Shown one piece after another: positions 4,577-47,595 of a stretch of 64,000 bases of DNA (its first letter is position 1; each line of letters begins with the position of its first letter). The notes beneath the pieces are model-generated. The model had not been told where the DNA came from, searched no databases, and worked only from the letters and a program-made list of their open reading frames with translations. The position numbers and the translations under genes were made by a program. The DNA lies in NCBI RefSeq assembly GCF_025961575.1, contig NZ_JAOQNX010000014.1, forward strand, positions 1 to 64,000. Direction: 5' to 3'. Source of the DNA: Rhodoblastus acidophilus. GTDB lineage: Bacteria > Pseudomonadota > Alphaproteobacteria > Rhizobiales > Beijerinckiaceae.

Positions 4577-7500
4577 TCATGCGTGCGTTGGGGAGGCCGC
4601 CTTGCGGCCGTCGATTTGAGCCATCATGTCCTCGACAATGCGCCGCCCGGAGTCGAGCGAGTACGCATCGGCGATGAACGCGCGCCCCTTGTCGGAAAGA
4701 CCGCGCCAGAGAACGGGATCATCATACAATTCGACGATTCGATCGGCAAAGCTTTCGCTAAGATCCGATACCAGAACCTCGCGCCCGTCCGTCAGCCCCA
4801 TGCCTTCCGCCGCGATCGTCGAAACGACGCAGGGAACGCCGTGACCTAGGCTCGAAACCACCTTGCCCTTGGCGCCCGCGCCGTAGCGAAGCGGCGCGAC
4901 GGTGAGGCGGATTTGGCTGAGTTCCCGTTCGAGATCGGCGACATAGCCGACGAAATCGACACCGGGAATGTCGCGCGCCTTCATTTCGTCCGGCATGTTG
5001 GAGCCGATCACCCTGAAACGGACGCCAGGGCGGAGCGCGGTGACGCGCGGCCAGATCGTCTCGAGGAAATTGTTGACGGCGTCGACGTTGGGCAGGTGCG
5101 AGAACCCTCCCACGAAAGCCACGTCGCGGCGCTGCTCGAAGGGCGGGATTTCGCCCCCCGAGAAGTCCCGGATCAGCGGAATGACGACAACATGCGCGGT
5201 CGGGGCAATCTCGGCCAGCAGATCCTTCTCGACTTCCGAAACCACGACGACGGCATCCGCGCGCGCGGCGAGCGCCAGCTCCCTTTCGCGCGTGCCTCGC
5301 GCCCGCTCCAACAGACCGGGATCATCGTTGATCAGGGCTTGCCGCTCTTCGCGAATGAAATGGAGATCCACCGTATTGAAGACGAGCTGGGCGTTCGGGC
5401 ACAGCCGCCGCGCGGCATCCATCTGAGCGCCGCCAAAGTCCACGCGCGAGGCGAACACAAGCCTGATCCGCTCGTTGTAAAGGAACAAGTAATCCTCGAT
5501 GAAGTCGAACTCGTTCGATCGGATGCACTTGACGCCCAGCTTGTTCAAGTTCCGGACGTAGGTGTAGTTGCTCGGCGCCAGATTGGCGAACTCCACCACC
5601 GAGATGAAGTGGACCTCGTACCCGAGCGACTGGAAAATCCTGACGAAGCTGATCTGGTCGAGTGATCCGGAATCCTGGTCCGGCCGCGGGAACATGGCGT
5701 CGATCATCACCACGATCGGCCCGGCGGACGCTTCGAAGCGCGCTGCTGTCGTAGGTGTCGCGACCGTGTCGCGCGGAACCCTGCCTTCCCGTTCGCCACT
5801 TTCGATGTAATGGGCGAGCGGATCGACGCCATCTTCCGCAATATCCTTGTAAGCCTTGAGATAGAAGTGCGGATCGAACGCCTCGCTCGCGCGCCGCGCT
5901 TCGCGGTAGCCGGCCTCGACATAATGGATCAGCGGATTCATCCCCGCAGCCTTCACGTCCGGATTGGCGCGGAAGTAGTAGTTGGTGTTGAACATCGGGT
6001 GAGGATCGCGTCCCTCACGCCATCCCGCCATGATATAGTGAGCCAGCGGGTTGCGGCCGCAAGCGACAATCTCGGGATTGTTCTGAAGGTAATAAGCTGA
6101 ATCGAAAAGCGTGTTGGCGCTGCAGAAGATATTGTCCAGCCAATGCAGCAGCGGATTGCGTCCGCTGAGGCGGACGTCCGCGTAGCGTTCGCGATATTTG
6201 TTGGTGCTGAACAGGGGATGGGGATCGAAGCCCTTCTGCGCCCCCCATTGCAGGTAATGGAGCGCCGGGCAGGACGCCAAGTGCCGAGCTTCGGGATGAT
6301 GGTCCAGGTAATAGCGTGTGTCGAGGAGCGGATGAACGTTCTTCTCCTCATATCGGCCGATGCGAACGAAATGCGCCAGCGGCGACAGGCCCGATCCCGC
6401 CACATCCGGATACATGGCTATGTATTCGTTATTCCTCAGGAAAGGAAAATCGGCGAGGTGGTCGGTATGACCCATCAGATATTTCAGGATGCGGTCCTGC
6501 CGGCCATCGCGAGACACGCCCACCAGCGACGGATCGAACTCGTCAAGGAACTGCTCGATCACCTTGGAGTCCCGATAAAGCTTCCTCGCCCATCGGTTGT
6601 GAAGTCCGACGGCCCGGAGGATCTTCCCGCCCAGCGTCCGCGACTTGCGGATCTTCCGCTTCATCCGCTCGAACTGCTTCTCCTGCAAGCCGTGGGTCCG
6701 CGACAGGTCCGCCCTCAGCGCCGCCGCCTCCATAGAAGCCGCCAGCATCGTCGATTTGGCGGACCGGCCCTCTTCCTGAGACGAGCCGAGTTTACGCGTG
6801 AGGGCGCTCACCGCATCGTCGAGACGTTCGATCTCCTGCTGGAGCGCGTCTTCGGCAGACGCGGCCGCCTGCAAGGCCGTGCGCGTCTGTGAAAGCTCGC
6901 TCCTGGACGATGCGAGTTCCTGGGCGCGAACGCTCGCCTCGTCCTCAAACCTCGAGATCGCGGCCTTGTGGCTTTCAGCTTCCAGCCGCAACGCCTGTTC
7001 CGCCCCGGCGCAGGCCGCCAGGGCGGCCTGCGCCTCCGAGAGCGCGCCATCAAGCCGTCCCCTGCAGTCCTCGAGCGCGCGCTGCAGAGCGTCGAAGCGA
7101 TCGGGCGAAAAGTCGCGGGTGCGTTCCCTGATTTTCTCGAAGCCAGGACTCGCGGCGCGAACCTCCTGAAGCATCTGGTCGAGACGGGCCTGCTTTTGCT
7201 CGGTCCCGACTTTCTCGATTTCCCGCTTCAGAACCGCCATAAGCCCCTTTTCGCGCAGGAGAAGGGGAGAACGCAGCAGCATCGGCCACAGAGATGGGAT
7301 TTCGATCGCATCGCGAATGTCACGCGCGAAAATGTCGCGCGCATGACTGATGTCATCAGCAAAACAGCAAGGTATTTTGAGGAGAGCCGAAAAATCCTCC
7401 CATTTAAACGGCAGATCCAGATGGCCGTTCGACCAGTAGGCGAAAGGCTTTTCATAAGCAGCCGCGGTCACGGCGCCGTGCAGCGCCCCACAAAGAACGA

Positions 7501-8092
7501 AATCGGCCGAATAGACGGCGTCGATAAATTCGAGAATTGCCGCTTTTTCCTTTCGCAAATTCGGCCGCAGCACAAGATCGCACCCGGATTGCGAAAGAAA
7601 GAACTGGTCAGAGCGCTTGTCATTGTAGTGCGGAATACAAACAGTACGTCCGACAAAGCGAGCATTTTCTCGGGGCGTGTATAGAGCCGGCAACAGCAGC
7701 CCAGGTTCGCCCATCGGCGTGGCGGCGCCAAGATTCAGATCGGAGGCCGATCGCGGGCCACGCACGGCGCGAATGTCGGCCACCGACCTGGCTGCCTCGC
7801 TCAGGCTCCCCGGCTCCCTGACGCCGCAACCCCAGTAAACGATCTTGGTCGATTCGTTGGCGCGCCAGCGGCTGAAGCCATCGCGCTCAATTGGGCCATT
7901 TACAGAAACGAGGCCGTCGGCGATCGTGCTGCCCACAAGGCGTATATCAACATCACCAGCCGAGAAATCATAGAACAACTCGTCGAGCAAGACGAGCGTT
8001 AACGCATCGCCGAAGTTCCACTCGCTCAGATCAGAGCTCCAGAATTTGATGTCATTTGAATAACGTGGACCTTCAAACATCATCTTTTCCAT
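4577..8092 (-). CDS. Giant polysaccharide protein: pyruvyltransferase - coiled coil - repeats - GT4
   Basis: About 1171 residues with four visible parts. (1) Residues 1-290 resemble the polysaccharide pyruvyl transferase domain, with FGDALTLVLLDEL near the start and LHGAVTAAAYEKPF. (2) An Ala/Glu-rich coiled coil follows, about 330-480. (3) Six imperfect repeats of about 45-50 residues with the core (Y)YLxxNPDVxxxGxNPLxHY, encoded at about 5780-6440, like repeats in large glycan-synthesis proteins. (4) A C-terminal GT4 glycosyltransferase of about 370 residues has AFVGGFSHLPNVDAV and PLRYGAGAKGKVVSSLGHGV. The TTG 33 bases upstream is in frame; the ATG at 8092 is preferred. Probably a modular enzyme that pyruvylates and extends a capsule or LPS chain. 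Confidence 0.75.
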   Translation of the reverse strand: MEKMMFEGPRYSNDIKFWSSDLSEWNFGDALTLVLLDELFYDFSAGDVDIRLVGSTIADGLVSVNGPIERDGFSRWRANESTKIVYWGCGVREPGSLSEAARSVADIRAVRGPRSASDLNLGAATPMGEPGLLLPALYTPRENARFVGRTVCIPHYNDKRSDQFFLSQSGCDLVLRPNLRKEKAAILEFIDAVYSADFVLCGALHGAVTAAAYEKPFAYWSNGHLDLPFKWEDFSALLKIPCCFADDISHARDIFARDIRDAIEIPSLWPMLLRSPLLLREKGLMAVLKREIEKVGTEQKQARLDQMLQEVRAASPGFEKIRERTRDFSPDRFDALQRALEDCRGRLDGALSEAQAALAACAGAEQALRLEAESHKAAISRFEDEASVRAQELASSRSELSQTRTALQAAASAEDALQQEIERLDDAVSALTRKLGSSQEEGRSAKSTMLAASMEAAALRADLSRTHGLQEKQFERMKRKIRKSRTLGGKILRAVGLHNRWARKLYRDSKVIEQFLDEFDPSLVGVSRDGRQDRILKYLMGHTDHLADFPFLRNNEYIAMYPDVAGSGLSPLAHFVRIGRYEEKNVHPLLDTRYYLDHHPEARHLASCPALHYLQWGAQKGFDPHPLFSTNKYRERYADVRLSGRNPLLHWLDNIFCSANTLFDSAYYLQNNPEIVACGRNPLAHYIMAGWREGRDPHPMFNTNYYFRANPDVKAAGMNPLIHYVEAGYREARRASEAFDPHFYLKAYKDIAEDGVDPLAHYIESGEREGRVPRDTVATPTTAARFEASAGPIVVMIDAMFPRPDQDSGSLDQISFVRIFQSLGYEVHFISVVEFANLAPSNYTYVRNLNKLGVKCIRSNEFDFIEDYLFLYNERIRLVFASRVDFGGAQMDAARRLCPNAQLVFNTVDLHFIREERQALINDDPGLLERARGTRERELALAARADAVVVVSEVEKDLLAEIAPTAHVVVIPLIRDFSGGEIPPFEQRRDVAFVGGFSHLPNVDAVNNFLETIWPRVTALRPGVRFRVIGSNMPDEMKARDIPGVDFVGYVADLERELSQIRLTVAPLRYGAGAKGKVVSSLGHGVPCVVSTIAAEGMGLTDGREVLVSDLSESFADRIVELYDDPVLWRGLSDKGRAFIADAYSLDSGRRIVEDMMAQIDGRKAASPTHA

Positions 8093-31923: not shown

Positions 31924-32778
31924 CTAAGCTGTGACCGCCTGTTCGGGCGTCGGCGCTTGAACCAGTTCGATCCGGTAACCATCGGGATCGACGATGAAGG
32001 CGACGATGTTTTCACCATGTCGTTGCGCGCGCGGCGGGCGCGGCATGGGCACGCCCCGAGCCGCGAGACGGTCGCAAAGACGCATGATGTTTTTCACGCC
32101 GATGGCGATGTGGCCGAAGGCGTCCCCGACGACATAAGCCTCCTCGCGCTGCCAGTTCTGGACGAGCTCGATGGTCATGCCGGGGCCGGCTGAGCCGGCG
32201 CTTCCAGCGCCGGCGACATAGCCGAGATAGGCCTGGGAGAACTGGTTCTTCTTGTGCTCGCGGCGCTCCAGCAGAGTCATGCCGAGCTTTTCCGTGTAGA
32301 AGGCGATGGACTCGTCGAGGTTTCTGACGCGCAGCATGGCGTGCAGCAGCGCGAATTCGCTGGCGTCGATCGAGCTGTCCTCGGCGGCGGCTGTCTTGGC
32401 GACAAAAAGTTCGCGCAGGGCCTCATCAACCCCTTTGCCGGCGTAAAGATTGGTGGCCTCGATGCCGATCTTGCTCAGCGCCTCCTGCGGCGCGGCGCCG
32501 ACCTTGGCGACCAGCAGCACCTGGCAATCCGCGATCATGCGATAGATGGTGGCGCGGACGTCTTCCTCTTCATCAAGGGCGTGTTCCGCGATCGCGCGCG
32601 CCGCCACCGGGCGAACGCCATTCGCGTCGACATCATAGACAGAGAAGACCGCGGCATGGCCGAAATGCAGATCGACCTTCTCGCCATCGCGCGTGGCGAC
32701 GGCGACGCGCAGACGCAAGCCCGCGTCGGTTTTGCCTTCAGCGGCGTCAACAGTCTTTTCCAGCACTTCATCCAGCAT
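31924..32778 (-). CDS. NifX - glyoxalase (VOC) fusion protein
   Basis: 284 residues with two domains. Residues about 20-125 are a NifX-type cofactor-binding domain (RVAVATRDGEKVDLHFGH, VYDVDANG). Residues about 143-275 are a glyoxalase I-like VOC domain that keeps all four metal-ligand positions: His in HAMLRV, Glu in TIELVQN, His in GHIAIGV and Glu in YRIELVQ. It leads the operon with vnfH from a near-perfect sigma-54 promoter. Fusion of a cofactor carrier with a metal-binding VOC domain suggests handling of a cofactor or its organic ligand; ordinary methylglyoxal detoxification is the alternative. Confidence 0.85.
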   Translation of the reverse strand: MLDEVLEKTVDAAEGKTDAGLRLRVAVATRDGEKVDLHFGHAAVFSVYDVDANGVRPVAARAIAEHALDEEEDVRATIYRMIADCQVLLVAKVGAAPQEALSKIGIEATNLYAGKGVDEALRELFVAKTAAAEDSSIDASEFALLHAMLRVRNLDESIAFYTEKLGMTLLERREHKKNQFSQAYLGYVAGAGSAGSAGPGMTIELVQNWQREEAYVVGDAFGHIAIGVKNIMRLCDRLAARGVPMPRPPRAQRHGENIVAFIVDPDGYRIELVQAPTPEQAVTA

Positions 32779-33194: not shown

Positions 33195-36498
<3,304 letters not shown>

Positions 36499-36502
36499 GG
36501 TG

Positions 36503-36549
36503 TTTTTTCGCACGGGCGCGTGATTGCCCTCCGAGCCCGTGCGAAAAAA
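36503..36549. other. 15-bp stem immediately after vnfK
   Basis: A perfect inverted repeat TTTTTTCGCACGGGC/GCCCGTGCGAAAAAA with a 17-base loop begins four bases after the vnfK stop. The T-run is on the 5' side in both directions, so it is not a classical terminator. It would form a long RNA hairpin that could protect the vnfDGK message from 3' exonucleases. Confidence 0.75.
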
Positions 36550-36581
36550 TGGCGCGTCGCCGTTCCAACCGTCGCGCCAAC

Positions 36582-36627
36582 CCCTCTCCCCGCGTCTTGC
36601 GGACATCCTGCGCGGGGAGAGGGTTTT
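36582..36627 (+). terminator. Probable terminator after vnfDGK
   Basis: A 13-bp stem CCCTCTCCCCGCG/CGCGGGGAGAGGG with a 16-base loop is followed by TTTTG. It is strong in stem but has only four T residues, so partial read-through into the next gene 25 bases on is likely. Confidence 0.6.
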
Positions 36628-36652
36628 GTATCGCGCTGCATCGAGGTTCGAC

Positions 36653-37549
36653 ATGGGGTTCACAGCAAAACTCTTCGCCAATCCTGACTTCGGCTGGTCG
36701 AACAAAGTGCGGCCGCCCGAGCACCGCCAGATCGAACTCTATACAAAACCGCGCATCCTCACTTTTGATGAGCCGCCGCTCCCCGAAGAGGCGCCGCTGG
36801 AGCGCATTGCGGCGGTGGCCCGCGCGGCCGTTGTGTTCGAGGCGACGCTCGCCGGCCTCTATCCCACCGACCTCCCCCTGACCTCCTGGGCGCGCGCCAA
36901 AGACCTGCCCAAGACGACAATGGTGGAAAAAGTCGCGCTGCAATTGCACCGCGTCACCCGCATCCTCCGCCTGATCGCCTTTCATCCGCACGGGCAGGTC
37001 GAAATGCGCAATGGCGTGATCTGCATGGGCGGCGTGATCGGCAAGGAGGTTTATTATTTCGACATCACCAGCGCTGGCCTCGACCTGATCGAGACCATGG
37101 TCGCCTACTGGTTTTCCGCCCGCGACAGCGTCTATCCGCAAGCTTACGTCGCCTGGGTGTTTTCGGAAATGTTTTTTGATCTCGGCGGCGAAATCCGGCG
37201 CTATTCGGACGAGGGCCGCACGCTCTACCAGTTCCAGCGCAAGGGTCCGTTCAACCGCCATTTCCGCTTCGACTGCGACAATCCGAAAGCGACGTTCGCC
37301 GGCGATTTCGTCGAGATCGACATTCCCGCGCCCTATCGCGACAGCGCGCGCTACGCCATCGATTTCTACGCCGTGCTGCATGATGTGCTGCACATCATCC
37401 CGGTTGAGGCGCTGAAGGACGGCAAGATCGCCCGCGAAAAACTGCCGGAATGGGAGGCGCGTACGAAAAAAGATCCAATGTCTCTGCCGGCGGCGTTCCA
37501 GCAAAAATTCGGGCGGCTGAAGCCCAACATCAACCAGCCGATGACCTAA
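36653..37549 (+). CDS. Unknown protein downstream of vnfK
   Basis: 298 residues with no recognised domain, signal peptide or clear membrane segment. Notable features are a Trp/Tyr-rich central part (SAGLDLIETMVAYWFSARDS), a charged RRYSDEGRTLYQFQRKG segment and HDVLHIIPVEALKDGK near the end. The ATG at 36653 has GAGG upstream; an earlier in-frame TTG would start inside the vnfK hairpin and is rejected. Lying between vnfK and another nifX-like gene on the same strand, it is probably linked to V-nitrogenase, perhaps as an assembly or protection factor (inference only). Confidence 0.8.
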   Translation: MGFTAKLFANPDFGWSNKVRPPEHRQIELYTKPRILTFDEPPLPEEAPLERIAAVARAAVVFEATLAGLYPTDLPLTSWARAKDLPKTTMVEKVALQLHRVTRILRLIAFHPHGQVEMRNGVICMGGVIGKEVYYFDITSAGLDLIETMVAYWFSARDSVYPQAYVAWVFSEMFFDLGGEIRRYSDEGRTLYQFQRKGPFNRHFRFDCDNPKATFAGDFVEIDIPAPYRDSARYAIDFYAVLHDVLHIIPVEALKDGKIAREKLPEWEARTKKDPMSLPAAFQQKFGRLKPNINQPMT

Positions 37550-38708: not shown

Positions 38709-39257
38709 TCACAAATAGCGGGTGAAACCAGCGGGATCGGGCGCGGGCAGCGGCGGATAGGGTTTTGTCGCGCTGCCGAGATAGAGAAAGCCGACGATGC
38801 GGTCGTGTTTCTGCAGGCCGAGCAGCCGGCCCAGATTCTCGTCATGCATCGGCCAGCCCGAGCGCCACACGCCGGCGAAACCTTGCGCAAAAGCGGCCAT
38901 CTGCATGGCCATGACCGCGCAGCCCGCGGCGAGCCGCTGGTCGAACAACGGCACGACCTTGCTCTCCCTCGCGCGCGCCACCACCACGATCACCAGCGGC
39001 GCCCGCAGCGGCATTTTGGGCGCGCGCGAAATATTTTCCTCGGGGCGGTTTGAGGCGATGGCCGCGCGCTGCATCAGCGCGCCGAGACGCTCGCGGCCCT
39101 CGCCTTCGGCCACCAGGAATTCGAACGGTTTCAAATTCTGGAAATCCGGCACGCGCAACGCCGCGCGCAAGATCACGTCCAGTTGGGCGGCGTCAGGACC
39201 GGGCTCCTGGAGCGCATGCGCGGATTGACGGGTGAGCAAGAGATCGAGGGCGTTCAT
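38709..39257 (-). CDS. Nitroreductase family FMN protein (YdjA type)
   Basis: 182 residues of the short YdjA-like nitroreductase group. RQSAHALQEPGPDAAQLDVIL at the N-terminus and RVPDFQNLKPFEFLV bind FMN; GFAGVWRSGW and LGLQKHDRIVGFLYLG are characteristic. Such enzymes reduce or oxidise small molecules and include flavin-dependent tailoring enzymes of peptides. The ATG overlaps the ABC ATPase stop by four bases, so it is the last gene of the seven-gene overlapping operon headed by the DUF2478-DUF364 gene. Confidence 0.85.
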   Translation of the reverse strand: MNALDLLLTRQSAHALQEPGPDAAQLDVILRAALRVPDFQNLKPFEFLVAEGEGRERLGALMQRAAIASNRPEENISRAPKMPLRAPLVIVVVARARESKVVPLFDQRLAAGCAVMAMQMAAFAQGFAGVWRSGWPMHDENLGRLLGLQKHDRIVGFLYLGSATKPYPPLPAPDPAGFTRYL

Positions 39258-40273
39258 TCCAGACTTCCAAAGGGCAAGGGCAGTGTTTCGAGCCGCGCGC
39301 CATGGCGCAGATTTTCGCGCAACTCGCTCATCAGCCGATCGTAATGCTCCAGCGTGGCGAGATGCGCGCGCTCGGTGTCGCTGGTTTCGATCACCTCCAG
39401 AACGGCGCCGGCGGCAATGACGATGCGCTTGTGCGCGTGCAGCGCCAGGATCGGATCATGCGTGGACATCAGGACGATCTTGTCGCTGGCGACCAGCAGG
39501 TCGAGCGCCTGGCGGCGGTTGATGCCGGCGTTCTCGATCTCGTCGATCAGCACGATGGGCGAGGTCGAGAGCAGCGCCACATCGGCGATCATCAGCGCGC
39601 GGCTTTGGCCGCCGCTGAGCTGGGTGAGCGAGGTGGCGGCGGAAAATTTTTCCCCCGCGAGTTGGTTGGCGCAGGCGATCACTTCCGCGGCCGCCTGTTC
39701 CGGATTGTCCACCGCGCGGCATTCCGCGTGCATTTCGACGAAATCGCCGACGGTGAGATCGACGACGAAATTCATGTTCTGCGACAGCTGCGCCACCAGC
39801 TTGCCGCTCGCCGCCCAGCGCCGCGCCGGATCGGGAATCTCGCCGTCGATGAGGATGCGCCGGCCCGACGGCGTATCCCCCTGCGCCAGGCATTCGATGT
39901 CGCCGAGCAGCCGGCTTTTGCCGGAGCCGGTCGGGCCGACGACGCTGACGATCGCGCCGGGGCGCAGGTCCAGATCGAGATTTTCGGCGGCCCCGGTCTT
40001 GTCGCGCCCGCCAAGAATGCGCAGCGATTTGATGCGCGTGACCGGATTTCGAAATCCTTGGGCGTCCTGGATCAGCGCCAGCAGATGCGCCTCCAGCTCC
40101 ACGCGCGAAAATTTGAGGCGATCGAGATCGCCGGAATCGAGCGACGCCAGCCAGTCGGCCAGCGACAGATCGGGTTTCGGCGTCGGGCCGATCAGCGTGG
40201 CGAAGGCGGGGTTGAGCCTTTGCGCCTCGTCGAGACGCAGGGACAGATTGGCGGGGCTCATATGCGCGCTCAT
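39254..40273 (-). CDS. ABC-type ATPase without a membrane partner
   Basis: 339 residues. After an N-terminal extension of about 95 residues comes an ABC ATPase domain: Walker A GPTGSGKS, signature LSGGQS, Walker B VLIDEIENAG and switch His in STHDPI. No permease gene lies anywhere in this operon, and the operon's binding-protein-like gene lacks a signal peptide. ABC ATPases without a membrane part act in Fe-S assembly (SufC) or enzyme activation, so a cytosolic metal or cofactor loading role fits. The start ATG overlaps the GTPase stop as ATGA. Confidence 0.85.
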   Translation of the reverse strand: MSAHMSPANLSLRLDEAQRLNPAFATLIGPTPKPDLSLADWLASLDSGDLDRLKFSRVELEAHLLALIQDAQGFRNPVTRIKSLRILGGRDKTGAAENLDLDLRPGAIVSVVGPTGSGKSRLLGDIECLAQGDTPSGRRILIDGEIPDPARRWAASGKLVAQLSQNMNFVVDLTVGDFVEMHAECRAVDNPEQAAAEVIACANQLAGEKFSAATSLTQLSGGQSRALMIADVALLSTSPIVLIDEIENAGINRRQALDLLVASDKIVLMSTHDPILALHAHKRIVIAAGAVLEVIETSDTERAHLATLEHYDRLMSELRENLRHGARLETLPLPFGSLE

Positions 40274-40968
40274 GCCAAGACCTCGGGAAAACGCATTTTG
40301 CGCACATTGCCGCGCTGGTGGTTTTCGCCGATGCAGGTTTCGCCGATGCAATAGGAGCAGATCGCCGAGGGCATGGGAAAGCGCAGCCGGCGCCCTTCCA
40401 GCGTCTCGATGTCGGGCGCGCCGCGCATGTGAAAGGCGAGTTCGCCGGCCCCCTGCCCCGTCAGCCCGTTGAAGGCGACGATCTGCGCCTGCGGATTGGC
40501 GCGCCAGACATTGTGGGCAAACACTTCGCGCTCGGCCTGCGAGACGATGTCCCCCTTGGTGATCGCGACGACATCGGCCATTTTCAGCATGGGGCCGATT
40601 TTCTTCGGCGTGTGTACGCCGGACAGATTGTCAACCACGCAGACGGCGAGCGCGCCCTGCACATGCGGCGAACAGCGGTTGCACAGGCCGGCGCTTTCCG
40701 CGATCAACAGGTCCGCGCCGATGTCTTGGGCCCATTGCAGGCAATCGTCGATGTTGGAGACGAAAAAATGGTCGGGGCAGACCGAGCCGGCGAGCCCCGC
40801 CGCCACCGGAATCTTTTCGCGGCGGTAAAGCAGATCGTCGTCGGTGGAGAGACAGTCGAATTTGACCACCGCGAGTTTCTGACCCTCCTCGCGCAGGGTT
40901 TTTGCGAGCTTCAGGATCAGCGAGGTTTTTCCCACGGAGGGCGGGCCGGCGACGGTGATCACGCGCAT
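40270..40968 (-). CDS. SIMIBI GTPase with Cys motifs, HypB/UreG-like
   Basis: 232 residues. Walker A GPPSVGKTS lies at about 8-16, followed by SAGLCNRCSPH and a KxD guanine motif in VVAITKGDI. The C-terminal tail has CSYCIGETCIGENHQRG, a Cys/His cluster likely to bind metal or an Fe-S cluster. The family includes metallochaperone GTPases HypB, UreG and CooC, which drive nickel insertion. The gene overlaps its neighbours by 4 and 10 bases. A role in delivering a metal (vanadium, iron or nickel) is inferred from family and context. Confidence 0.82.
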   Translation of the reverse strand: MRVITVAGPPSVGKTSLILKLAKTLREEGQKLAVVKFDCLSTDDDLLYRREKIPVAAGLAGSVCPDHFFVSNIDDCLQWAQDIGADLLIAESAGLCNRCSPHVQGALAVCVVDNLSGVHTPKKIGPMLKMADVVAITKGDIVSQAEREVFAHNVWRANPQAQIVAFNGLTGQGAGELAFHMRGAPDIETLEGRRLRFPMPSAICSYCIGETCIGENHQRGNVRKMRFPEVLA

Positions 40969-42041
40969 AGGCTTTCCCCCCTGTCGAGTTTTTCCGTGGC
41001 GGCATGGAACAGGCGCGTGATCCGCTTGATCTCGGAGGCGGTGGCGCGCGCGCGGAAAAAATCCCAGCCGGGCCACGCCAACCCTGCGCCTTCGGGCAAT
41101 CCGGCGCCGGTCGGCGCCAGCGAGGGATAGCGGTTGTGGTCGAGCCAGCGCGCAGTCCGTGGCGCGAAGAAATAATCGGCGAGCGGGGCGACGCGGTCGC
41201 GATGCGCGGATTGCGCCGTCATCCACAGCGGAAAAGCCAAGGCGCCCTCGCCCGGCCAGACGATTTCGGTGCGATCGCGGCGCGGGCACATGTCGGCAAG
41301 CGCCCAGGGCAAGATGTAGATGGCGGCGAGCGAATTCGGCGTACCGGCGAGGCGCGGCATTTGCGCGGAATGGGCGAGCCCCGCGAGATTGGCCAGCACC
41401 TCGCGCAATATCTTGTCGCCGAGCAGGCGCGCGACGGCGACGAGGAAGAACTGGTTGAAGGCCCGCCATTGCTGCGCGCCCTCCGGCCGCCAGCCGGACA
41501 GCGCGATTTCGCCGCGATAGGCGGGGTCGGCGAGATCGGCCCAGTTTTGCGGGATTTTGCGCCCGCCCAATCGGGCGCGGTCCACCAGCATGACGAAGGG
41601 GGCGACGGCATAGACGCCGATCCAGCCGCGCGGATCGATCAGCCCGGCCTCTGCAAAGGCGGGCGAGGCGCCCGAAGGCTGCGGCGCGGCAAAGGCGCCG
41701 GTCTCGACATGGCGGGCGTGGAAGGCGCGGTTGAAGGCGTTGCCGTGGTCGGCGGAAACAAGCAGTTTGGGAAAATCGTCCAAGTCGCGGATGTGGCGCA
41801 GCCGCTCGAACGGGGTGCGGCCGCCCTGGCCCATGGGCATGCAGCCCTTCAGCTTTTCACCGCGCTGGCGATGGATGTCGCGCAAGAGGTCGGCGAGTTC
41901 GTCGCGCATGCGCATGCGAAGCGGCGCGGGACAGGACCCCAAAAAGTCCCAGCCTCGCGCCGTCGCGCGCGGCGCATGCGCGGCGCCGAAGGCGCGCGGC
42001 GGCGGCTCGACCGCCAGCTGGAGCGAGGTCACCGCACCCAT
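40959..42041 (-). CDS. Solute-binding-protein fold without a signal peptide
   Basis: 360 residues that resemble the extracellular solute-binding protein family of iron/thiamine/polyamine ABC importers: SPAFAEAGLIDPRGWIGVYA, PQNWADLADPAYRGEIALSG and GAQQWRAFNQFF. The N-terminus (MGAVTSLQLAVEPPPRAFGA) has no Lys/Arg-then-hydrophobic signal, and no permease follows, so it is probably cytoplasmic. It overlaps ATP-grasp by 13 bases and the GTPase by 10. A periplasmic binding protein turned into an intracellular carrier for a metal or small ligand is the interesting reading. Confidence 0.75.
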   Translation of the reverse strand: MGAVTSLQLAVEPPPRAFGAAHAPRATARGWDFLGSCPAPLRMRMRDELADLLRDIHRQRGEKLKGCMPMGQGGRTPFERLRHIRDLDDFPKLLVSADHGNAFNRAFHARHVETGAFAAPQPSGASPAFAEAGLIDPRGWIGVYAVAPFVMLVDRARLGGRKIPQNWADLADPAYRGEIALSGWRPEGAQQWRAFNQFFLVAVARLLGDKILREVLANLAGLAHSAQMPRLAGTPNSLAAIYILPWALADMCPRRDRTEIVWPGEGALAFPLWMTAQSAHRDRVAPLADYFFAPRTARWLDHNRYPSLAPTGAGLPEGAGLAWPGWDFFRARATASEIKRITRLFHAATEKLDRGESLCA

Positions 42042-43054
42042 TTGCGCGTCTCCACGGCGCGCCAGTGCCGGCGCAAGGCATATTCGACGATATGGCCGAG
42101 CAAGTCGGCCTGGCTCAGACCTTTTTGCGACGCGGCGAGGCAGATGGCGCCGCTGCGGCCGATGTGGCAGCAGATGTTGAATTCGAGAAAGACCCGCTGG
42201 CCCGTCTTCTCGTCGAAGCGATAATCGAGCCGCAGATAGTCGATCGGCCCCGCCCCGGCCCAAAGTTTTTTCGCGTCCTCCGCGAAGGCGCCGTAAGCCG
42301 GGCCGGCGTCGAACAAAGCATAGCCCAGTGGATCGTCGCGCTTCAGATCCTCGGTGATGATCTCGCCGGCGCGGTCGGAGCGCGGCTGAACGAGATCGAG
42401 GATGATGGGCTCGTCGGCGCCGATCACCGGCAGGGTGACGTCGACGCCCGGCGCATAACGCTCGACCAGCACCGCCATGCCGCGTGAAAAGAGCTTTTCC
42501 GCCGCCTTTTTCGCGCCCTCCCAATCGTCCTGGATCGAGTCCTCCGAAATGCCTTCGGAGGCCGCGCCAAAGCGGTTTTTTACAAAATAGGGACCGGCGA
42601 AGGGAGGCGGCGCCAAATCCTCGGGACGCGAATAGATCGCGCCCTCGCTGACCGGCAGGCCGAGGGACTTCACAAAATTCTTCGTCATCCACTTATCCTC
42701 GGCCAGCGCCCTGATGTTCGGCTTGGCCCCGATCATCGGCAGATGCAGGAACTCGCAGGTCGCGGCGACGAAGACTTCCGGATTGTCGATCGCCATGCGG
42801 TTGTAAAGCGAGAACACCAGATCGATCTCGTGGGCTTCCGTATAGAGCGCGCGGCACTGGTTCGAGGTGGCGACGCGATAGCCGATGTCGCGCAGGGCGT
42901 GATAGATGCGGTGGTAATAGGCGGGATAGCCGCCGTCGCCCGGATAGCTGGCCACGGCGTAATCGGGCGCGAGCGGCGCCGAGCGCGCGAGAAAGAAAAT
43001 GCGCGTCGCCTGGGCGTTCACGGGCCGCAAGATTTTTTGCTTCAGATCGTTCAT
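42029..43054 (-). CDS. ATP-grasp ligase, D-Ala-D-Ala ligase-like
   Basis: 341 residues with the ATP-grasp order: a pre-ATP-grasp domain, AEDKWMTKNFVKSLGLPVSE, PYFVKNRFGAASEGIS (nucleotide loop), VERYAPGVDVTLPVI and EFNICCHIGRSGAI (metal-binding Glu/Asn). The D-Ala-D-Ala ligase subgroup forms amide bonds between carboxylates and amines, and includes peptide ligases of natural-product pathways. It follows the 18-residue peptide gene after a hairpin and overlaps the next gene. This makes it the most likely enzyme to use or extend that peptide. Confidence 0.85.
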   Translation of the reverse strand: MNDLKQKILRPVNAQATRIFFLARSAPLAPDYAVASYPGDGGYPAYYHRIYHALRDIGYRVATSNQCRALYTEAHEIDLVFSLYNRMAIDNPEVFVAATCEFLHLPMIGAKPNIRALAEDKWMTKNFVKSLGLPVSEGAIYSRPEDLAPPPFAGPYFVKNRFGAASEGISEDSIQDDWEGAKKAAEKLFSRGMAVLVERYAPGVDVTLPVIGADEPIILDLVQPRSDRAGEIITEDLKRDDPLGYALFDAGPAYGAFAEDAKKLWAGAGPIDYLRLDYRFDEKTGQRVFLEFNICCHIGRSGAICLAASQKGLSQADLLGHIVEYALRRHWRAVETRKWVR

Positions 43055-43140
43055 CGGAATGTCCTTCCGCGCGCCTTTACGGGAGCAAGCGCCGGGCCAG
43101 CGATTTTGCCGCGAAAACCGCGCGATTGTGCACCCAAACG

Positions 43141-43166
43141 TGCGAAACGCCGAAAAGGCGTTCGCA
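43141..43166 (-). other. Hairpin between the short peptide ORF and the ATP-grasp gene
   Basis: On the minus strand TGCGAACGCC, loop TTTTC, GGCGTTTCGCA forms a stem of ten pairs with one bulge, five bases past the peptide stop. There is no T-run. Such leaky hairpins commonly lie between precursor-peptide genes and biosynthesis genes and let the precursor be made in excess. Confidence 0.7.
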
Positions 43167-43171
43167 TCGGA

Positions 43172-43228
43172 TCAGGCGCGCGCGCGCATGGCGGCGACAC
43201 TTGTGTTGACGAGCATTTTTGGGCGCAT
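43172..43228 (-). CDS. 18-residue peptide with a strong ribosome binding site
   Basis: The encoded peptide is MRPKMLVNTSVAAMRARA. The site GGAGGAG lies six bases before the ATG, the best match to anti-Shine-Dalgarno in this operon, while the next gene has only a modest site. The peptide is basic, with three Met, Asn-Thr-Ser in the middle and Arg-Ala-Arg-Ala at the end, no Cys, and no similarity that I recognise. Placed between the DUF2478-DUF364 gene and the ATP-grasp gene, it could be a substrate peptide. A regulatory leader ORF controlling the hairpin by translation is the main alternative. Confidence 0.6.
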   Translation of the reverse strand: MRPKMLVNTSVAAMRARA

Positions 43229-43320
43229 GTCGGTCTCCTCCCGCCGGAAGGGCGCCGGCGGCGTTGCGGGAAACGGCTCATGCCGCGTCGGACGCTTGTT
43301 TCGCGTCGGGGGGTGTCGCC

Positions 43321-44562
43321 TCAGCGCTTTGACAGCGCCGAAGCCTTGTCGCTGAGATGAATATAACGGCCGAATTTGGAAAAATCCTTTGGCGCGGCGC
43401 CGGCGCGCACCGCCTGCGCCAGACCGTCGATGTCGCGCGCGACAAAGCCGCCGAGCACGGCGAGGCCGTAATCGTGCAGGCGCGGCGTCAGCGGCGTCGA
43501 CGGGCCGATCAGCGCCACGGGGCGATGGCGCGCGAGACGCAGGATGCGCGTGAGGCCGCGGTTGATGAGCGCCGAAGAATTGACGATGGCGCCGCCGCAG
43601 CCGGGCAGCAGCGATTCCATCGCCGCCACCGGATATTCGCCGGGGCGCGGATCGGTCTCGATAATGGCGCAATTCTGCAGGATCGAATCGACGCCGGGAA
43701 AGGCGCCGACCACGACCACAGGCCCCGGCGCGCCGCGAAATCCACGAACCCCGTTGCCGCTGGCGCCCTCGAGATCGGCGCGGTTGTAAAAGGCGTTGAG
43801 CGCGGCGACGCCCAGCGCCGCTTCGAGCGGGTTCCATGATTGCGACAATTGCGCCAGCGCCCGCAGCGACAGTTTCGACAGCTCGGGCAAGCGCGGCAGC
43901 AGGTCGCGCGGGTGGCGCGGCAGATAGGCGAGGCCGGCCCCATGCGGCCCCTCGACCATCAGCCAGCGCGGGCCGCAGACGATGCGACGGGCTTCGACCT
44001 CGTCGACGCCGAGCGCGAGATCGTCGTAGAGCCGCTCGGCGCCCCACCATTCCCAGAGCGCGCGGCGGTTGGGCGCGATCATCGAGCCCTCATGGCGCAC
44101 GAACTGGTGCCAATGATGGATGGCGCCGCCGGCTATGGTGGTGAGCAAAGGCAGGCCGCGCCCCGCCCCGGCGCCGACCGGCAGTTTCGACGCGCGCGCC
44201 GCATCGGTGCAGCCGGGGAAGCGGCCGATGGCGAACAGGTCGGCGCCGTCGCGGATTGCGCGGGCGAGATGGATTTCGGCGGATTGCGGGGTTTCGACAA
44301 ACGTCTTGCCGGTGGAGAGATCGATGGAGAGCGGCGCCTCGCCGATCACCACCGCGCCTTTTCGCGCATAGCCGCCGACGCCAAAACCTCGCGCGGAAAG
44401 TTCGGCGGCGAAATCGACGATCAGCCGATCGACGGTGACGGAGGGGTCGTGAACGACGACGCCGGGGCGCAGCCAGCTGGGCGCCTGGGCGGGGGCCGCT
44501 TGGGGCGTTGGCGGCGTTTGGGGCGTTCGCGGCGTTTGGGGGCGATGAGAGCTTTCGGGCAT
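43321..44562 (-). CDS. DUF2478 - DUF364 (putative heavy-metal chelation) fusion
   Basis: 413 residues. After a Pro-rich N-terminus, residues about 35-185 match DUF2478: VVHDPSVTVDRLIVDFAAEL, SIDLSTGKTF, DLFAIGRFPGCT and GLPLLTTIAGG. DUF2478 genes often accompany molybdate transport and nif genes. Residues about 230-410 match DUF364, annotated as a putative heavy-metal chelation domain: NPLEAALGVAALNAFYNR, GPVVVVGAFPG and GGAIVNSSALINRGLTRIL. The fusion of both is unusual. It is first in the operon, 30 bases downstream of a sigma-54 promoter, and likely binds a metal or metal-complex. Confidence 0.8.
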   Translation of the reverse strand: MPESSHRPQTPRTPQTPPTPQAAPAQAPSWLRPGVVVHDPSVTVDRLIVDFAAELSARGFGVGGYARKGAVVIGEAPLSIDLSTGKTFVETPQSAEIHLARAIRDGADLFAIGRFPGCTDAARASKLPVGAGAGRGLPLLTTIAGGAIHHWHQFVRHEGSMIAPNRRALWEWWGAERLYDDLALGVDEVEARRIVCGPRWLMVEGPHGAGLAYLPRHPRDLLPRLPELSKLSLRALAQLSQSWNPLEAALGVAALNAFYNRADLEGASGNGVRGFRGAPGPVVVVGAFPGVDSILQNCAIIETDPRPGEYPVAAMESLLPGCGGAIVNSSALINRGLTRILRLARHRPVALIGPSTPLTPRLHDYGLAVLGGFVARDIDGLAQAVRAGAAPKDFSKFGRYIHLSDKASALSKR

Positions 44563-44591: not shown

Positions 44592-44607
44592 AGCAATAGC
44601 CGGGCCA
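44592..44607 (-). promoter_or_regulatory. Sigma-54 promoter of the DUF364-peptide operon
   Basis: The minus-strand sequence TGGCCCGGCTATTGCT keeps TGGC, TTGCT and GG-N10-GC, and is almost the same as the vnfE promoter TGGCCCAGCGCTTGCT. Transcription would start near 44581, about 18 bases before the ATG. An ATGTAA hexamer at 44577-44582, part of TGTAATTTGACTACA, overlaps the start point and may be an operator. Confidence 0.72.
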
Positions 44608-44673
44608 GAGTCGAGAGCCTTGAATAAAAGCCGGAAAGCGTTGGGTTGGCGGCGCGTCGGCGCCGGGGCGACG

Positions 44674-44689: not shown

Positions 44690-44935
44690 TCTGTTTCACG
44701 GAAATGTACGTTTTGGAGCGCCCGGGCCGTTGTGATGGCCATGGTTCGAGACGGCGGCTGCGCCGCCTCCTCACCATGAGGGGGATCTCTCTATCGACGA
44801 TTCAATAGCCCTCATCTGAGGAGCCTGCGTCAGCAGCGCTGAGCTTGCCGAAGCGTCTAGGGACGAGGGCGGTCCAGGCATTTCCTCCTCCAGGGATTTC
44901 ACCCCCTCCGGGGATCGCGCCGGGGCTGGCGGTTC

Positions 44936-44951
44936 TGGCGCCGATCCTGCT
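44936..44951 (+). promoter_or_regulatory. Candidate sigma-54 promoter of the PhnCDE-like importer
   Basis: TGGCGCCGATCCTGCT has GG and GC ten bases apart and resembles the vnfA and vnfD promoters, but the -24 element is TGGCGC and the -12 is CTGC. It would give a leader of about 125 bases. A chance match is possible in such GC-rich DNA. Confidence 0.45.
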
Positions 44952-45087
44952 AACATCGAAACGCTCGGCCCCCCGGCCGAAGCGCCGTCGCGGGTGCAAA
45001 AAATCGCGCGACCGATCCCGGCATGAGCCGTCCTCGAATTGGCGAATTCCCCCCGAAAAATTTGGGGTGGTTCGTCGTGGAGACCTC

Positions 45088-45885
45088 ATGTCGATGCTGC
45101 ATCTCGTCCCGACGCCCGCCTTCCCGCCCGCAGCGCCAGCGCTGAGCGTGGACGACCTGTGCGTGGCGCGCGGCGGCCGAGCGATCCTGCGCAATGTCTC
45201 CACCTCTTTCGCCGCCGGTGCGGTGACCGTGGTGGTCGGCCCCTCCGGCGCCGGCAAGACCACGCTGCTCAATGTGCTCAACGGACTGGTCGAGCCCAGC
45301 AGCGGCGAGCTGTTCGCGACCGAACTCGGGCCGCTGCGCGGCGCCGACGCCTGGGCGGCTTTGCGCGCCCATACCGCGACCATTTTTCAGGATCACGCCC
45401 TGATCGGCCGGCTGAGCGCTTTCGAAAATGTGCTGCTCGCCTTCGCCGAATCCCGCCATCCGCTGTCGCTGTTGCCCTGGCCCCGTTTCGCGCGGGAGGC
45501 GGCGGCCAAGGCGCTGGAGGAGGTCGGCCTGCTCGACCGCGCCTTCGAGCGGGTCGAGAATTTTTCCGGCGGCGAGCGCCAGCGCATCGGCATCGCCCGC
45601 GCCCTGGCGCGGGGGCCGCGCCTGCTGCTCGGCGACGAACCGTTTTCCTCGCTCGATCAGCCGCTGGCGCGCCGCCTCGGCGCCGAGCTCCGCACGCTGG
45701 CCGTGCGAAAGGGCGTCACGCTGGTGCTGGTCCTGCACCAGATCGCGCTCGCCCGGGCGCTCGCCGACCGCATCGTCGCCCTCAACGATGGCCGCGTGGT
45801 GTTCGACGGTCCCGCCGAAACGTTCGACGAGGCCGCGGAACAGATGGTTTTCACGCTTTCCCCCAGCCATAGAAAAGGATGCTGA
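45088..45885 (+). CDS. ABC importer ATPase, PhnC-like
   Basis: 265 residues with Walker A GPSGAGKTT, Q-loop FQDHALIGRLSAFENVL, signature FSGGERQR and Walker B LLLGDEPFSSLD. The form is that of phosphonate/phosphite importers (PhnC/PtxA). The ATG at 45088 follows GGAG; a longer frame upstream is rejected. It drives import with the permease and binding protein that follow at 1-4 base spacings. Confidence 0.85.
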   Translation: MSMLHLVPTPAFPPAAPALSVDDLCVARGGRAILRNVSTSFAAGAVTVVVGPSGAGKTTLLNVLNGLVEPSSGELFATELGPLRGADAWAALRAHTATIFQDHALIGRLSAFENVLLAFAESRHPLSLLPWPRFAREAAAKALEEVGLLDRAFERVENFSGGERQRIGIARALARGPRLLLGDEPFSSLDQPLARRLGAELRTLAVRKGVTLVLVLHQIALARALADRIVALNDGRVVFDGPAETFDEAAEQMVFTLSPSHRKGC

Positions 45886-45886
45886 C

Positions 45887-46789
45887 ATGATGAGATGGTC
45901 CCGTCGCCTGGCGCTCGCGGCGCTGGGTTTTGCGCTCGCCGGACCGGCGCTCGCGCAGGACACGCCCGCGCGTCCGAAAAAGCTGGTCATCGGCCTGTTG
46001 CCGACGGAATCCGCGCCGACGGTGATGCGGCTCAACGAGCCGCTGCGCGCCTATCTCCAGGAGACGCTGCACCTGCCGGTGGAAGTGGTGGTCGGCGCCA
46101 ATTACGCCGCCACTTCGGAGGCGCTGCGCTTCGGGCGCATCGACATCGCCTATCTCGGCCCGGTCACCTATATCCTGCAATCCAAACATGCGGGCTTGCA
46201 GCCCTTCGCGCGGCCGAGCCATCCCGGCGTCGGCCCGACCTTCCAGGCGACCATCATCGTCCCCGCCGACAGCAAGGCGCAAAAGCTCACCGATCTCAAG
46301 GGCGGCGAAATCGCCTTCGGCGACCCCGCCTCGACCTCGGGCACCTGGGTTCCGCGCTGGCAACTGCTTCACGAGGGGCTGATTTCCGAGCGGGATTACA
46401 AGCTGCGCGTGCTCGGCGCCCATGACGCCGTGGCGCTGGCCGTCGCCAACGGAAAAGTCGCCGCCGGCGGTCTGTCGAAACCGGTGTTCAATCGGCTGAT
46501 CAAGGAAGGCAAGATCGACGCGGCGAAAGTGCGCATCCTGCAGGATTCCCCGCCGATCCCCGAATATATGTGGACGTTTAGAGACGGGCTCGACCCCGCC
46601 TTCAAGGAAGAGGTGCGCAAGGCTTTCATCGAGGTCAAGGACCCCGCCGCCCTGGCCGTGTTCCGCGCCGAAGCTTTTATTCCCGCCGTGGACGCCGACG
46701 TCGACCGGGTGCGCCAGTGGATCGCCGCGATCCAGGCGGTGAGCGCGCAGACCGCGTGGAAGCCCGGCGAAGCCCCGGCCGCGCAATGA
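45887..46789 (+). CDS. PhnD-like oxyanion-binding protein
   Basis: 300 residues. A signal peptide (MMRWSRRLALAALGFALAGPALAQ) exports it to the periplasm. The mature part matches the phosphate/phosphite/phosphonate-binding PhnD family: GLLPTESAPTVMRLNEPL, ALRFGRIDIAYLGPVTYIL and ADSKAQKLTDLKGGEIAFGD with the Ser-Thr-Ser-Gly binding loop DPASTSGTW. Vanadate is a phosphate analogue, and the location beside the vnf genes suggests vanadate uptake, which is inference. Phosphite or phosphonate uptake is the alternative; no C-P lyase or ptxD is nearby. Confidence 0.85.
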   Translation: MMRWSRRLALAALGFALAGPALAQDTPARPKKLVIGLLPTESAPTVMRLNEPLRAYLQETLHLPVEVVVGANYAATSEALRFGRIDIAYLGPVTYILQSKHAGLQPFARPSHPGVGPTFQATIIVPADSKAQKLTDLKGGEIAFGDPASTSGTWVPRWQLLHEGLISERDYKLRVLGAHDAVALAVANGKVAAGGLSKPVFNRLIKEGKIDAAKVRILQDSPPIPEYMWTFRDGLDPAFKEEVRKAFIEVKDPAALAVFRAEAFIPAVDADVDRVRQWIAAIQAVSAQTAWKPGEAPAAQ

Positions 46790-47595
46790 CCGAAGCCGCT
46801 TACGCCGCGCTCGCCGGTGAATGGCGGCGCCGGCAGACGCGCCGGCAAGCGGCCTTGGCTCTGGCGGCGGCGGCGATCCTCGCCGCCTTCGCCTATGCCG
46901 GCGCGCTCGATCTGTCGCGCTATGCCGACGCTCTGCCCACCATCGCGCAATTGGCGAACGAATCTTTTCCGCCGGATTTTTCGCGCTGGCGCGAATGGGG
47001 ACGGCCGCTGCTGGAAACCCTGGCGACCGGCGTCGCCGGCACGGCGCTGGGCGCGGTTCTGGCGCTGCCGCTGGCCTCGCTCGCCGCCCGCAACGCCGGG
47101 GCGCCGGTCTGGCTCAACGAGATCGTGCGTTTCGGTCTTGGCGCGGTGCGCTCGCTGCCCGGCCTGATCTGGGGCGTGATTTTTGTTGCGGCGGTCGGGT
47201 TTGGGCCGCTGCCGGGCGTGCTGGCGCTCGGCGTGCATTCCACGGGGATGCTGGGAAAACTGTTTTTTGAAGCACTTGAGCATGTCGAGCCCGGCCCCGG
47301 CGCAGCTTTACGGGCTCAAGGCGCGTCACGACTCGGGGTGTTCCGTTTCGCCCTGCTGCCGCAGGCGCTGCCGCGCCTGACCGACGCGCTGATCTACCGG
47401 TTGGAGCACAATCTGCGCGCCGCGACGACGCTGGGCATTGTCGGCGCAGGCGGCTTTGGTCTGGAGATCGTCACCGCCTTCCACCTGTTCGAATATCGCG
47501 AGGCCTCGGCGCTGATCCTGGTGCTGCTGGGCCTGATCACCACGGTGAATTTTTTTGGCGCGCGTTTGCGGCGGATCATGTTGCGCGGGCATTGA
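46786..47595 (+). CDS. PhnE-like ABC importer permease
   Basis: 269 residues with about six membrane segments; the first is ALALAAAAILAAFAYAGAL. The coupling segment EHVEPGPGAALRAQGASRLGVFRFALLPQALP is the EAA loop of PhnE-type permeases. It overlaps the binding protein gene by four bases. A very strong 18-bp inverted repeat follows the stop by about 47 bases. Confidence 0.85.
   Translation: MTEAAYAALAGEWRRRQTRRQAALALAAAAILAAFAYAGALDLSRYADALPTIAQLANESFPPDFSRWREWGRPLLETLATGVAGTALGAVLALPLASLAARNAGAPVWLNEIVRFGLGAVRSLPGLIWGVIFVAAVGFGPLPGVLALGVHSTGMLGKLFFEALEHVEPGPGAALRAQGASRLGVFRFALLPQALPRLTDALIYRLEHNLRAATTLGIVGAGGFGLEIVTAFHLFEYREASALILVLLGLITTVNFFGARLRRIMLRGH

Follow-up and report, generated by a model that had tools for sequence, protein, structure and literature searches.

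An operon beside vnfDGK in Rhodoblastus is an alphaproteobacterial form of a V-nitrogenase accessory operon known from Azotobacter

What do a solute-binding protein (SBP), a GTPase and an ATP-binding cassette (ABC) ATPase do next to a nitrogenase when no permease is encoded with them? This question is raised by an operon beside the vanadium (V) nitrogenase genes vnfDGK of Rhodoblastus acidophilus, which we examined in a stretch of 64,000 nucleotides (contig NZ_JAOQNX010000014.1, positions 1 to 64,000), called the window below. Its source genome (G000; 4.9 Mb in 80 contigs) encodes nif, vnf and anf nitrogenase systems, as judged by profile matches. The specificity of the molybdenum and vanadium systems in cofactor assembly has been called a conundrum (PMC8406325), and a module that is linked to V-nitrogenase and pairs a metal-type GTPase with a cytosolic binder is an immediate candidate for vanadium selection in the assembly of the iron-vanadium (FeV) cofactor. 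We find that the operon corresponds, in alphaproteobacterial form, to Avin_02430-02390, an accessory operon of V-nitrogenase in Azotobacter vinelandii. The module is real, linked to V-nitrogenase and already recorded in Azotobacter, and its probable task is to prepare vanadium or deliver it within the cell.

Read from 44562 to 38709, the minus strand holds seven frames: a protein with part of DUF2478 followed by DUF4213 and DUF364, an 18-residue frame, an ATP-grasp protein, an SBP_bac_6 protein, a GTPase, an ABC ATPase and a nitroreductase (Table 1). The frames and their Pfam domains bear out the initial annotation of this DNA, as do the position beside vnfDGK, the absence of a permease among the operon genes, and the overlaps that run from ATP-grasp through nitroreductase. 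These are 13 nt between ATP-grasp and SBP, 10 nt between SBP and GTPase and 4 nt between ABC ATPase and nitroreductase; in addition, with the ABC start shifted to 40273, as read from the sequence, an ATGA overlaps the GTPase stop (the ABC protein analyses used the shorter frame 39254-40261). Among the records covered by a scan across species, the closest GTPases were those of Rhodoblastus acidophilus (95% identity) and R. sphagnicola (94%).

The operon had also been described as undescribed-looking, which does not hold for its SBP-GTPase-ABC-nitroreductase core. In A. vinelandii, Avin_02430 (SBP), Avin_02420 ('nickel binding GTPase'), Avin_02410 (ABC ATPase), Avin_02400 (nitroreductase) and Avin_02390 (glutamate-cysteine ligase) form one VnfA1-dependent operon (PMC9542535), and all but the last gene are conserved in Proteobacteria with V-nitrogenase (PMC9542535, citing Addo and Dos Santos 2020). 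No function for an operon of this type is stated in the literature we found, which was mainly non-subscription. In G728, which carries both vnf and anf, belongs to the genus of A. chroococcum and was taken as A. vinelandii, the four-gene set occupies 229-233 kb and vnfDGK 248-251 kb; the window proteins are 37% (SBP), 66% (GTPase), 57% (ABC ATPase) and 57% (nitroreductase) identical to their counterparts there. The window has the same gene order on one strand, a GTPase that falls inside the nitroreductase-linked clade described next, and vnfD in its genome. The core operon was therefore already known, and what is new is the version with a swapped ligase, together with the comparison of clade and vnfD.

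Scanning one genome per species gave 531 relatives of the GTPase, and the loci of the best 80 of these were analysed. In a tree of 89 GTPases, all 32 that are linked to a nitroreductase lie inside one clade of 35 rows (97/91); the nitroreductase is present in L133 and L141, and the three clade rows lacking it are L019 and L025, whose contigs end in or before the ABC gene, and L036. Outside the clade, no nitroreductase match was found in the DNA examined at these loci. Of the 35 clade genomes, 33 have a VnfD match above the curated cut-off, and the two others are metagenome-assembled genomes (MAGs), namely G305 (L019), whose contig carries vnfK, and G322 (L036; 1.7 Mb). The same profile check covered 11 further genomes, among which G337, G346, G030 and G190 gave an anf-level match only, and G073, G318 and G340 neither vnf nor anf. 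Across the order (297 genomes), the GTPase occurs in two genomes and AnfG/VnfG in four; both GTPase genomes are the vnf genomes, and both anf-only genomes lack the GTPase. A class-wide sample of 385 genomes yielded AnfG/VnfG only in G000 and G389. The link to V-nitrogenase that the initial annotation had drawn is thus upheld for the nitroreductase-linked clade, as it is by the VnfA1 dependence of the Azotobacter operon. Its broader expectation, co-occurrence with an alternative nitrogenase, stands in part: the core is widespread and occurs also where no AnfG/VnfG match was found (16 of 50 tested genomes, drawn from the 80 locus genomes; the other 34 matched), but only two of these 16, both MAGs, belong to the clade.

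This distribution also bears on the cargo, which, rather than vanadium, might be iron, nickel or some organic compound required under vnf conditions. The SBP fold is nearest to ferric-binding proteins and the GTPase nearest to HypB/UreG, and the core is also found apart from vnf, close to Fec-type importers or a hybrid-cluster protein. However, the clade tracks vnfD and the anf-only genomes of the order lack the GTPase, and we consider such a cargo distinctly unlikely.

The broad SBP-GTPase-ABC core is found in Deferribacteres, Cloacimonadota, Clostridia, Fusobacteria, methanogens and others, and the ABC ATPase accompanies the GTPase in 75 of the 80 loci, as judged by frame clustering. In alignments, the window GTPase is 58-65% identical to members outside the clade and 61-66% to beta- and gammaproteobacterial clade members; the corresponding values for the SBP are 20-28% and 31-36%. 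By these identities and the conserved motifs of the ABC ATPase, a GTPase and ABC engine is shared while the binder is variable, the pattern expected if cargo choice lies with the binder. Frequent neighbors of the core outside the clade are a hybrid-cluster protein or, together with a methyltransferase, Fec-type importers (names assigned by eye), and one such SBP has an N-terminal DUF1858 confirmed by family search.

Several loci deserve mention in their own right. A hybrid-cluster protein, recognized by eye, is close to the core in L056, L057, L059, L062, L074, L075, L085 and others, and 14 rows of the GTPase tree are so labelled. Within 0-16 kb of L064 (Clostridium ljungdahlii), FecB/FecC-like genes, a GTPase-ABC core, a methyltransferase, a cytosolic SBP and two DUF364 relatives are clustered. 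Some vnf genomes hold a second SBP-GTPase-ABC set lacking nitroreductase (L004, G139 569-571.6 kb; L150, G728 46-49 kb; L146, G319); the GTPases of these three sets group together (100/99), and the set in G139 lies among Fec-type importer genes.

We then considered the individual proteins. The claim that the SBP lacks a signal peptide agrees with its hydrophobicity, the measure used here: its 12-residue Kyte-Doolittle maximum at the N-terminus is 1.05, compared to 2.18 in the periplasmic-type SBP next to the operon, and 30 relatives range from 0.04 to 1.55. The structure model of the SBP (predicted local distance difference test, pLDDT, 87.4) resembles ferric- or metal-citrate-binding proteins in 36 of 50 Foldseek rows; the best 50 listed comprise 30 ferric-binding, six metal-citrate, six polyamine (PotD), five AfuA (sugar-phosphate) and three other rows, with many repeats of one protein. 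The best match is 1y9u (E 1e-11), at the level of fold (template modelling, TM, score 0.52-0.59). Since some proteins of this fold hold a synergistic carbonate or citrate (matches 2owt and MctA) and carbonate has been proposed in the FeV-cofactor, the operon might supply the carbonate or homocitrate side of the cofactor, for example by ATP-dependent carboxylate activation. However, the resemblance is one of fold, and we know of no carboxylating chemistry among GCS2 enzymes, the ligases of related operons; this explanation appears highly improbable.

In the GTPase, Cys64, His67, Cys96, Cys99, Cys204 and Cys207 are invariant across 38 aligned sequences, and in the ABC ATPase Walker A, Walker B, LSGGQ and the switch His vary little or not at all among 35 aligned proteins. 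The model of the latter (pLDDT 90.2) matches the nucleotide-binding domains of many transporters and has an additional helical region within the first 70 residues. A module for sensing or buffering vanadium in the cytosol, the role proposed for VnfZ with VnfA3 in Azotobacter, has a published precedent in that a signal-less SBP serves as a regulator partner (PMC9542535). However, VnfZ is homologous to the phosphonate-type SBP VodA and is not of the SBP_bac_6 type (PMC9542535), and two active-looking NTPases, a flavoprotein and a ligase would exceed the needs of a sensor. We therefore judge a role in sensing or homeostasis to be quite improbable.

The ATP-grasp protein scores below the curated D-Ala-D-Ala ligase subfamily cut-offs (51.7 against 243 and 40.1 against 245.65). 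Because it aligns with R-x-D and E-x-N, the catalytic Mg/substrate residues of Ddl, it probably works like an ATP-grasp ligase. The DUF364 protein matches DUF364 (E 2.6e-27), DUF4213 (1.3e-14) and DUF2478 (9.4e-9) in Pfam and PDB entry 3l5o (E 5.2e-28).

The ligase is the part of the operon that changes between lineages. ATP-grasp (E < 1e-100) is present in 17 of the 35 clade genomes and GCS2 in 15, with the G309 copy an 88-residue piece; at these levels no genome has both and three have neither. The GCS2 genome G325 also gives a distant ATP-grasp match (3.7e-11). In G316, the first 28 GCS2 residues stand at a contig end (L030), and allowing for them leaves G311, an isolate, and G322, a MAG, with neither ligase. 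Mapped on the tree, the ligase state requires one change, so that the swap appears as one evolutionary event and repeated independent swaps are ruled out. DUF364 relatives accompany 13 of 15 ATP-grasp loci and none of 13 GCS2 loci in the DNA examined. Strict V-specificity of ATP-grasp is also ruled out, since relatives lacking vnf carry stand-alone copies.

ATP-grasp and GCS2 enzymes both belong to ATP-dependent carboxylate-amine ligase families. This kinship, with exactly one of the two in 32 of 35 clade genomes and the partial start in G316 adding a 33rd, would suit a pathway in which ligase and nitroreductase together produce a small vanadium ligand of peptide or amide type, with the SBP, GTPase and ABC ATPase handling the complex. 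Structure and context have also connected DUF364 with the synthesis of metal ligands (PMC2954201). However, the swap counts as a single change, the ATP-grasp gene of G139 lies about 2 Mb away from its operon, ATP-grasp occurs in vnf-less relatives, and G311 and G322 have neither ligase. Ligand synthesis as the main purpose of the operon is therefore unlikely.

Two sigma54 promoter-like sites precede the DUF364 and ATP-grasp genes. Sites of this kind number 11 across the whole window compared to 8.6 expected, with no excess over chance, and the evidence for these two is therefore their position and conservation. Of 30 loci with nitroreductase, 20 have a sigma54-like site with at most two mismatches close to the start of the operon; of 50 without, 2 do, one of them being the clade member L036 (80 of 83 loci were compared; L041, L046 and L061 were omitted because their GTPase label was unusable). 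The ten nitroreductase loci with no such site near the start are L011, L015, L034, L038, L063, L079, L021, L022, L026 and L027, and in the last four ATP-grasp is on the opposite strand. Because such sites precede both genes, the operon is probably transcribed as two units, with DUF364 and ATP-grasp each having its own start, and the single seven-gene transcript of the initial annotation is rejected on account of the two sites. In R. acidophilus L011, a single transcript from DUF364 through ATP-grasp is likely, since an intact small gene (7446-7784) joins the two with no sigma54-like site between; its product has no Pfam match at 0.01. R. sphagnicola L012 also has the intact small gene (7463-7798, stop to stop), followed by a sigma54-like site. 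Judging from this comparison, the 18-residue frame of the window is the truncated start of the same, decayed gene, and the peptide is accordingly rejected both as a working part and as a substrate of the ribosomally synthesized and post-translationally modified peptide type.

Other control elements were sought in the window. The A. vinelandii-type VnfA site GTAC-N6-GTAC (at most one mismatch) is absent from the operon, and its two one-mismatch matches in the window fall below the chance mean of 2.9; it was rejected as the control site. Palindromes resembling TCGCAC-N6-GTGCGA, with up to three mismatches, occur in all four vnf-region promoter gaps examined (28444, 32899, 43128 and 44677), a level reached by 12% of random 230-bp segments. 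The pattern was itself derived from the ATP-grasp promoter and L012, and its window total of 40 is below the 74 expected by chance. It is a possible activator site of the genus, offered as a lead only. No RNA family exceeded its gathering threshold in the window.

Divergent from the DUF364 gene is a phosphonate-type importer. In the vnf region of R. palustris, an SBP annotated as phosphonate-type (RPA1385) bound vanadate in vitro (PMC3223731); vodABC is the predicted counterpart in A. vinelandii (PMC9542535); a similar transporter follows vnfDGK in both Azotobacter genomes compared (PMC4465626); and DUF364 is tied by genomic context to RPA1384/1385 (PMC2954201). Elsewhere in the vnf region, a NifX-like (Nitro_FeMo-Co) domain fused to a glyoxalase-type domain is encoded upstream of vnfH (31924-32778, minus strand), and relatives adjoin vnf in G139 and several other loci. 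A 341-residue frame following vnfK (36524-37549, plus strand) has no Pfam match at 0.001; its relatives come after vnfK in G728 (Azotobacter) and other loci.

We tentatively favor, at somewhat less than an even chance, a membrane-less route driven by ATP and GTP that hands imported vanadium to FeV-cofactor assembly. Vanadate would enter through the vodABC-like importer, and the FbpA-fold SBP would capture the metal in the cytosol, possibly along with a synergistic anion. The metal could be kept reduced or chelated by the nitroreductase and by whatever the ligase makes, the ligase being ATP-grasp in this operon and GCS2 in beta- and gammaproteobacterial relatives. At the expense of GTP and ATP, the HypB-like GTPase, with its Cys/His set, and the soluble ABC ATPase would then hand it on to the VnfEN/VnfX assembly line. 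The whole set may act much as an ABC importer does, but in the cytosol and with no membrane part. The gene set with its overlaps, the clade, the linkage to vnfD, the promoter-like sites, the conserved catalytic and Cys/His residues and the predicted folds are observations; that vanadium is the cargo, which way it is transferred and what each enzyme does are inferred. This reading is supported by the way the nitroreductase-linked clade tracks vnfD and by the lack of the GTPase in the anf-only genomes of the order, by the preference of sigma54-like sites for nitroreductase-bearing operons and VnfA1 control in A. vinelandii, by the adjoining importer and vanadate binding by the R. palustris SBP of like annotation, and by the conserved residues of both NTPases and the resemblance of the SBP model to ferric- and metal-citrate-binding proteins. 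Of the two roles put forward as alternatives in the initial annotation, metal insertion into a cofactor or synthesis of a peptide-based metal ligand, either may hold on the data computed here.

Several observations weigh against vanadium delivery. The Foldseek matches of the SBP include sugar-phosphate and polyamine binders, with TM-scores of only 0.45-0.69. ATP-grasp stands alone in G030, G073 and G190, all lacking vnf, in an unrelated neighborhood of lysA- and argH-like genes (by eye). The clade member L036 has no ABC or nitroreductase match in the 1.5 kb after its GTPase, and the distant anf-only genomes G337 and G346 carry a GTPase outside the clade. The Bacillota G327, G329, G331 and G332 have VnfD and a non-clade GTPase, with no nitroreductase in the DNA examined. 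Three Nostoc vnfD plasmids gave no GTPase match, the plasmids alone being covered and their chromosomes not searched; the one Nostoc plasmid vnf region viewed has a transporter and no such module, and at an E threshold of 1e-30 the sole GTPase match in the whole plasmid set was a Fusobacterium record. Since an operon of the nitroreductase type was found neither in the Nostoc plasmids nor in the DNA examined of the four Bacillota, V-nitrogenase may work without it. The accessible text of PMC8406325 on genes needed for the FeV-cofactor also leaves these genes unnamed.

The vanadium route could itself be one client of a general machine, in which a conserved GTPase and ABC engine works with interchangeable cytosolic binders to equip metallo-cofactors with metals or metal complexes; the copies in anaerobes would then have clients of their own, and the ligase would be exchangeable between two enzyme families. 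This is possible but doubtful. If correct, hundreds of unexplained genes (531 GTPase relatives) would gain a testable role, and the question of how vanadium reaches VnfEN specifically would be answered.

Table 1. Features of the window: the operon, its putative control sites and neighboring genes
Feature	Position	Strand	Basis
Nitroreductase, NAD(P)H nitroreductase family flavoprotein (NF008088)	38709-39257	-	193.2 bits vs cut-off 183
Permease-less ABC ATPase with additional N-terminal helical domain	39254-40273	-	Pfam, alignment, model
HypB/UreG-like SIMIBI GTPase (CobW/HypB)	40270-40968	-	Pfam, curated models, alignment
Cytosolic solute-binding-fold protein (SBP_bac_6), ferric-binding-protein-like	40959-42041	-	Pfam, hydrophobicity, model
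Probable ATP-grasp ligase, D-Ala-D-Ala-ligase-like	42029-43054	-	Pfam; below curated D-Ala-D-Ala cut-offs
Sigma54 (-24/-12) promoter-like site CTGGCCCGGCGCTTGCT	43084-43100	-	30 bp before ATP-grasp; one mismatch to consensus
Candidate activator site, TCGCAC-N6-GTGCGA-like	43128-43145	unassigned	Palindrome, 2 mismatches; lead only
18-residue open reading frame (ORF), apparent remnant of decayed small gene	43172-43228	-	Comparison with L011, L012
DUF2478 (C-terminal half)-DUF4213-DUF364 protein, putative heavy-metal chelation family	43321-44562	-	Pfam domains, fold match
Sigma54 (-24/-12) promoter-like site CTGGCCCGGCTATTGCT	44592-44608	-	30 bp before DUF364 gene; one mismatch to YTGGCACRNNNNTTGCW
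vnfD, vnfG, vnfK	33207-36498	+	VNFD 972.6 bits vs cut-off 823.1
Importer ABC ATPase (ORF limits; true start probably later)	44845-45885	+	Family match
Importer periplasmic phosphonate-type SBP, vodA-like, signal-peptide-like start	45887-46789	+	Phosphonate-bd E 5.2e-64
Importer permease	46717-47595	+	BPD_transp_1

Finally, we compared the operon with known systems. Like HypB and UreG, the window GTPase is a P-loop GTPase of the same superfamily, and it has cysteines in the stretches aligned with the HypB cysteines, some of which bind nickel. However, it scores 49.1 bits against the HypB cut-off of 121.2 and 32.1 against the UreG cut-off of 204.2, adds a C-terminal CxxC, and sits within an SBP/ABC set. 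The ABC ATPase is permease-less like SufC, but the operon has no SufB/SufD partner, the protein has its additional N-terminal helical domain, and SufC-like SmsC2 (9h7x) ranks only 32nd among its structure matches. SBPs of the ferric-binding-protein class bind metal through twin tyrosines; the window SBP is predicted to share their fold, but by hydrophobicity it has no counterpart of their periplasmic signal peptide, and no partner permease is encoded among the operon genes.

The closest counterpart is Avin_02430-02390, with which the window has in common the order SBP-GTPase-ABC-nitroreductase on one strand, the clade, the linkage to vnf and, as a promoter-like site in the window, a promoter of sigma54 type. 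The Azotobacter operon ends with GCS2, of which the window genome has no relative (E 1e-10), whereas the window has ATP-grasp in first position, for which G728 gave no match, and DUF364 upstream, unlike the Azotobacter operon. Since GCS2 is reported as non-conserved outside Azotobacter and is not required, the window operon is a variant of the same operon. The broad SBP-GTPase-ABC core shares its ABC motifs and SBP family with the window operon, and the comparison thus ties this module to a much larger unexplained family.

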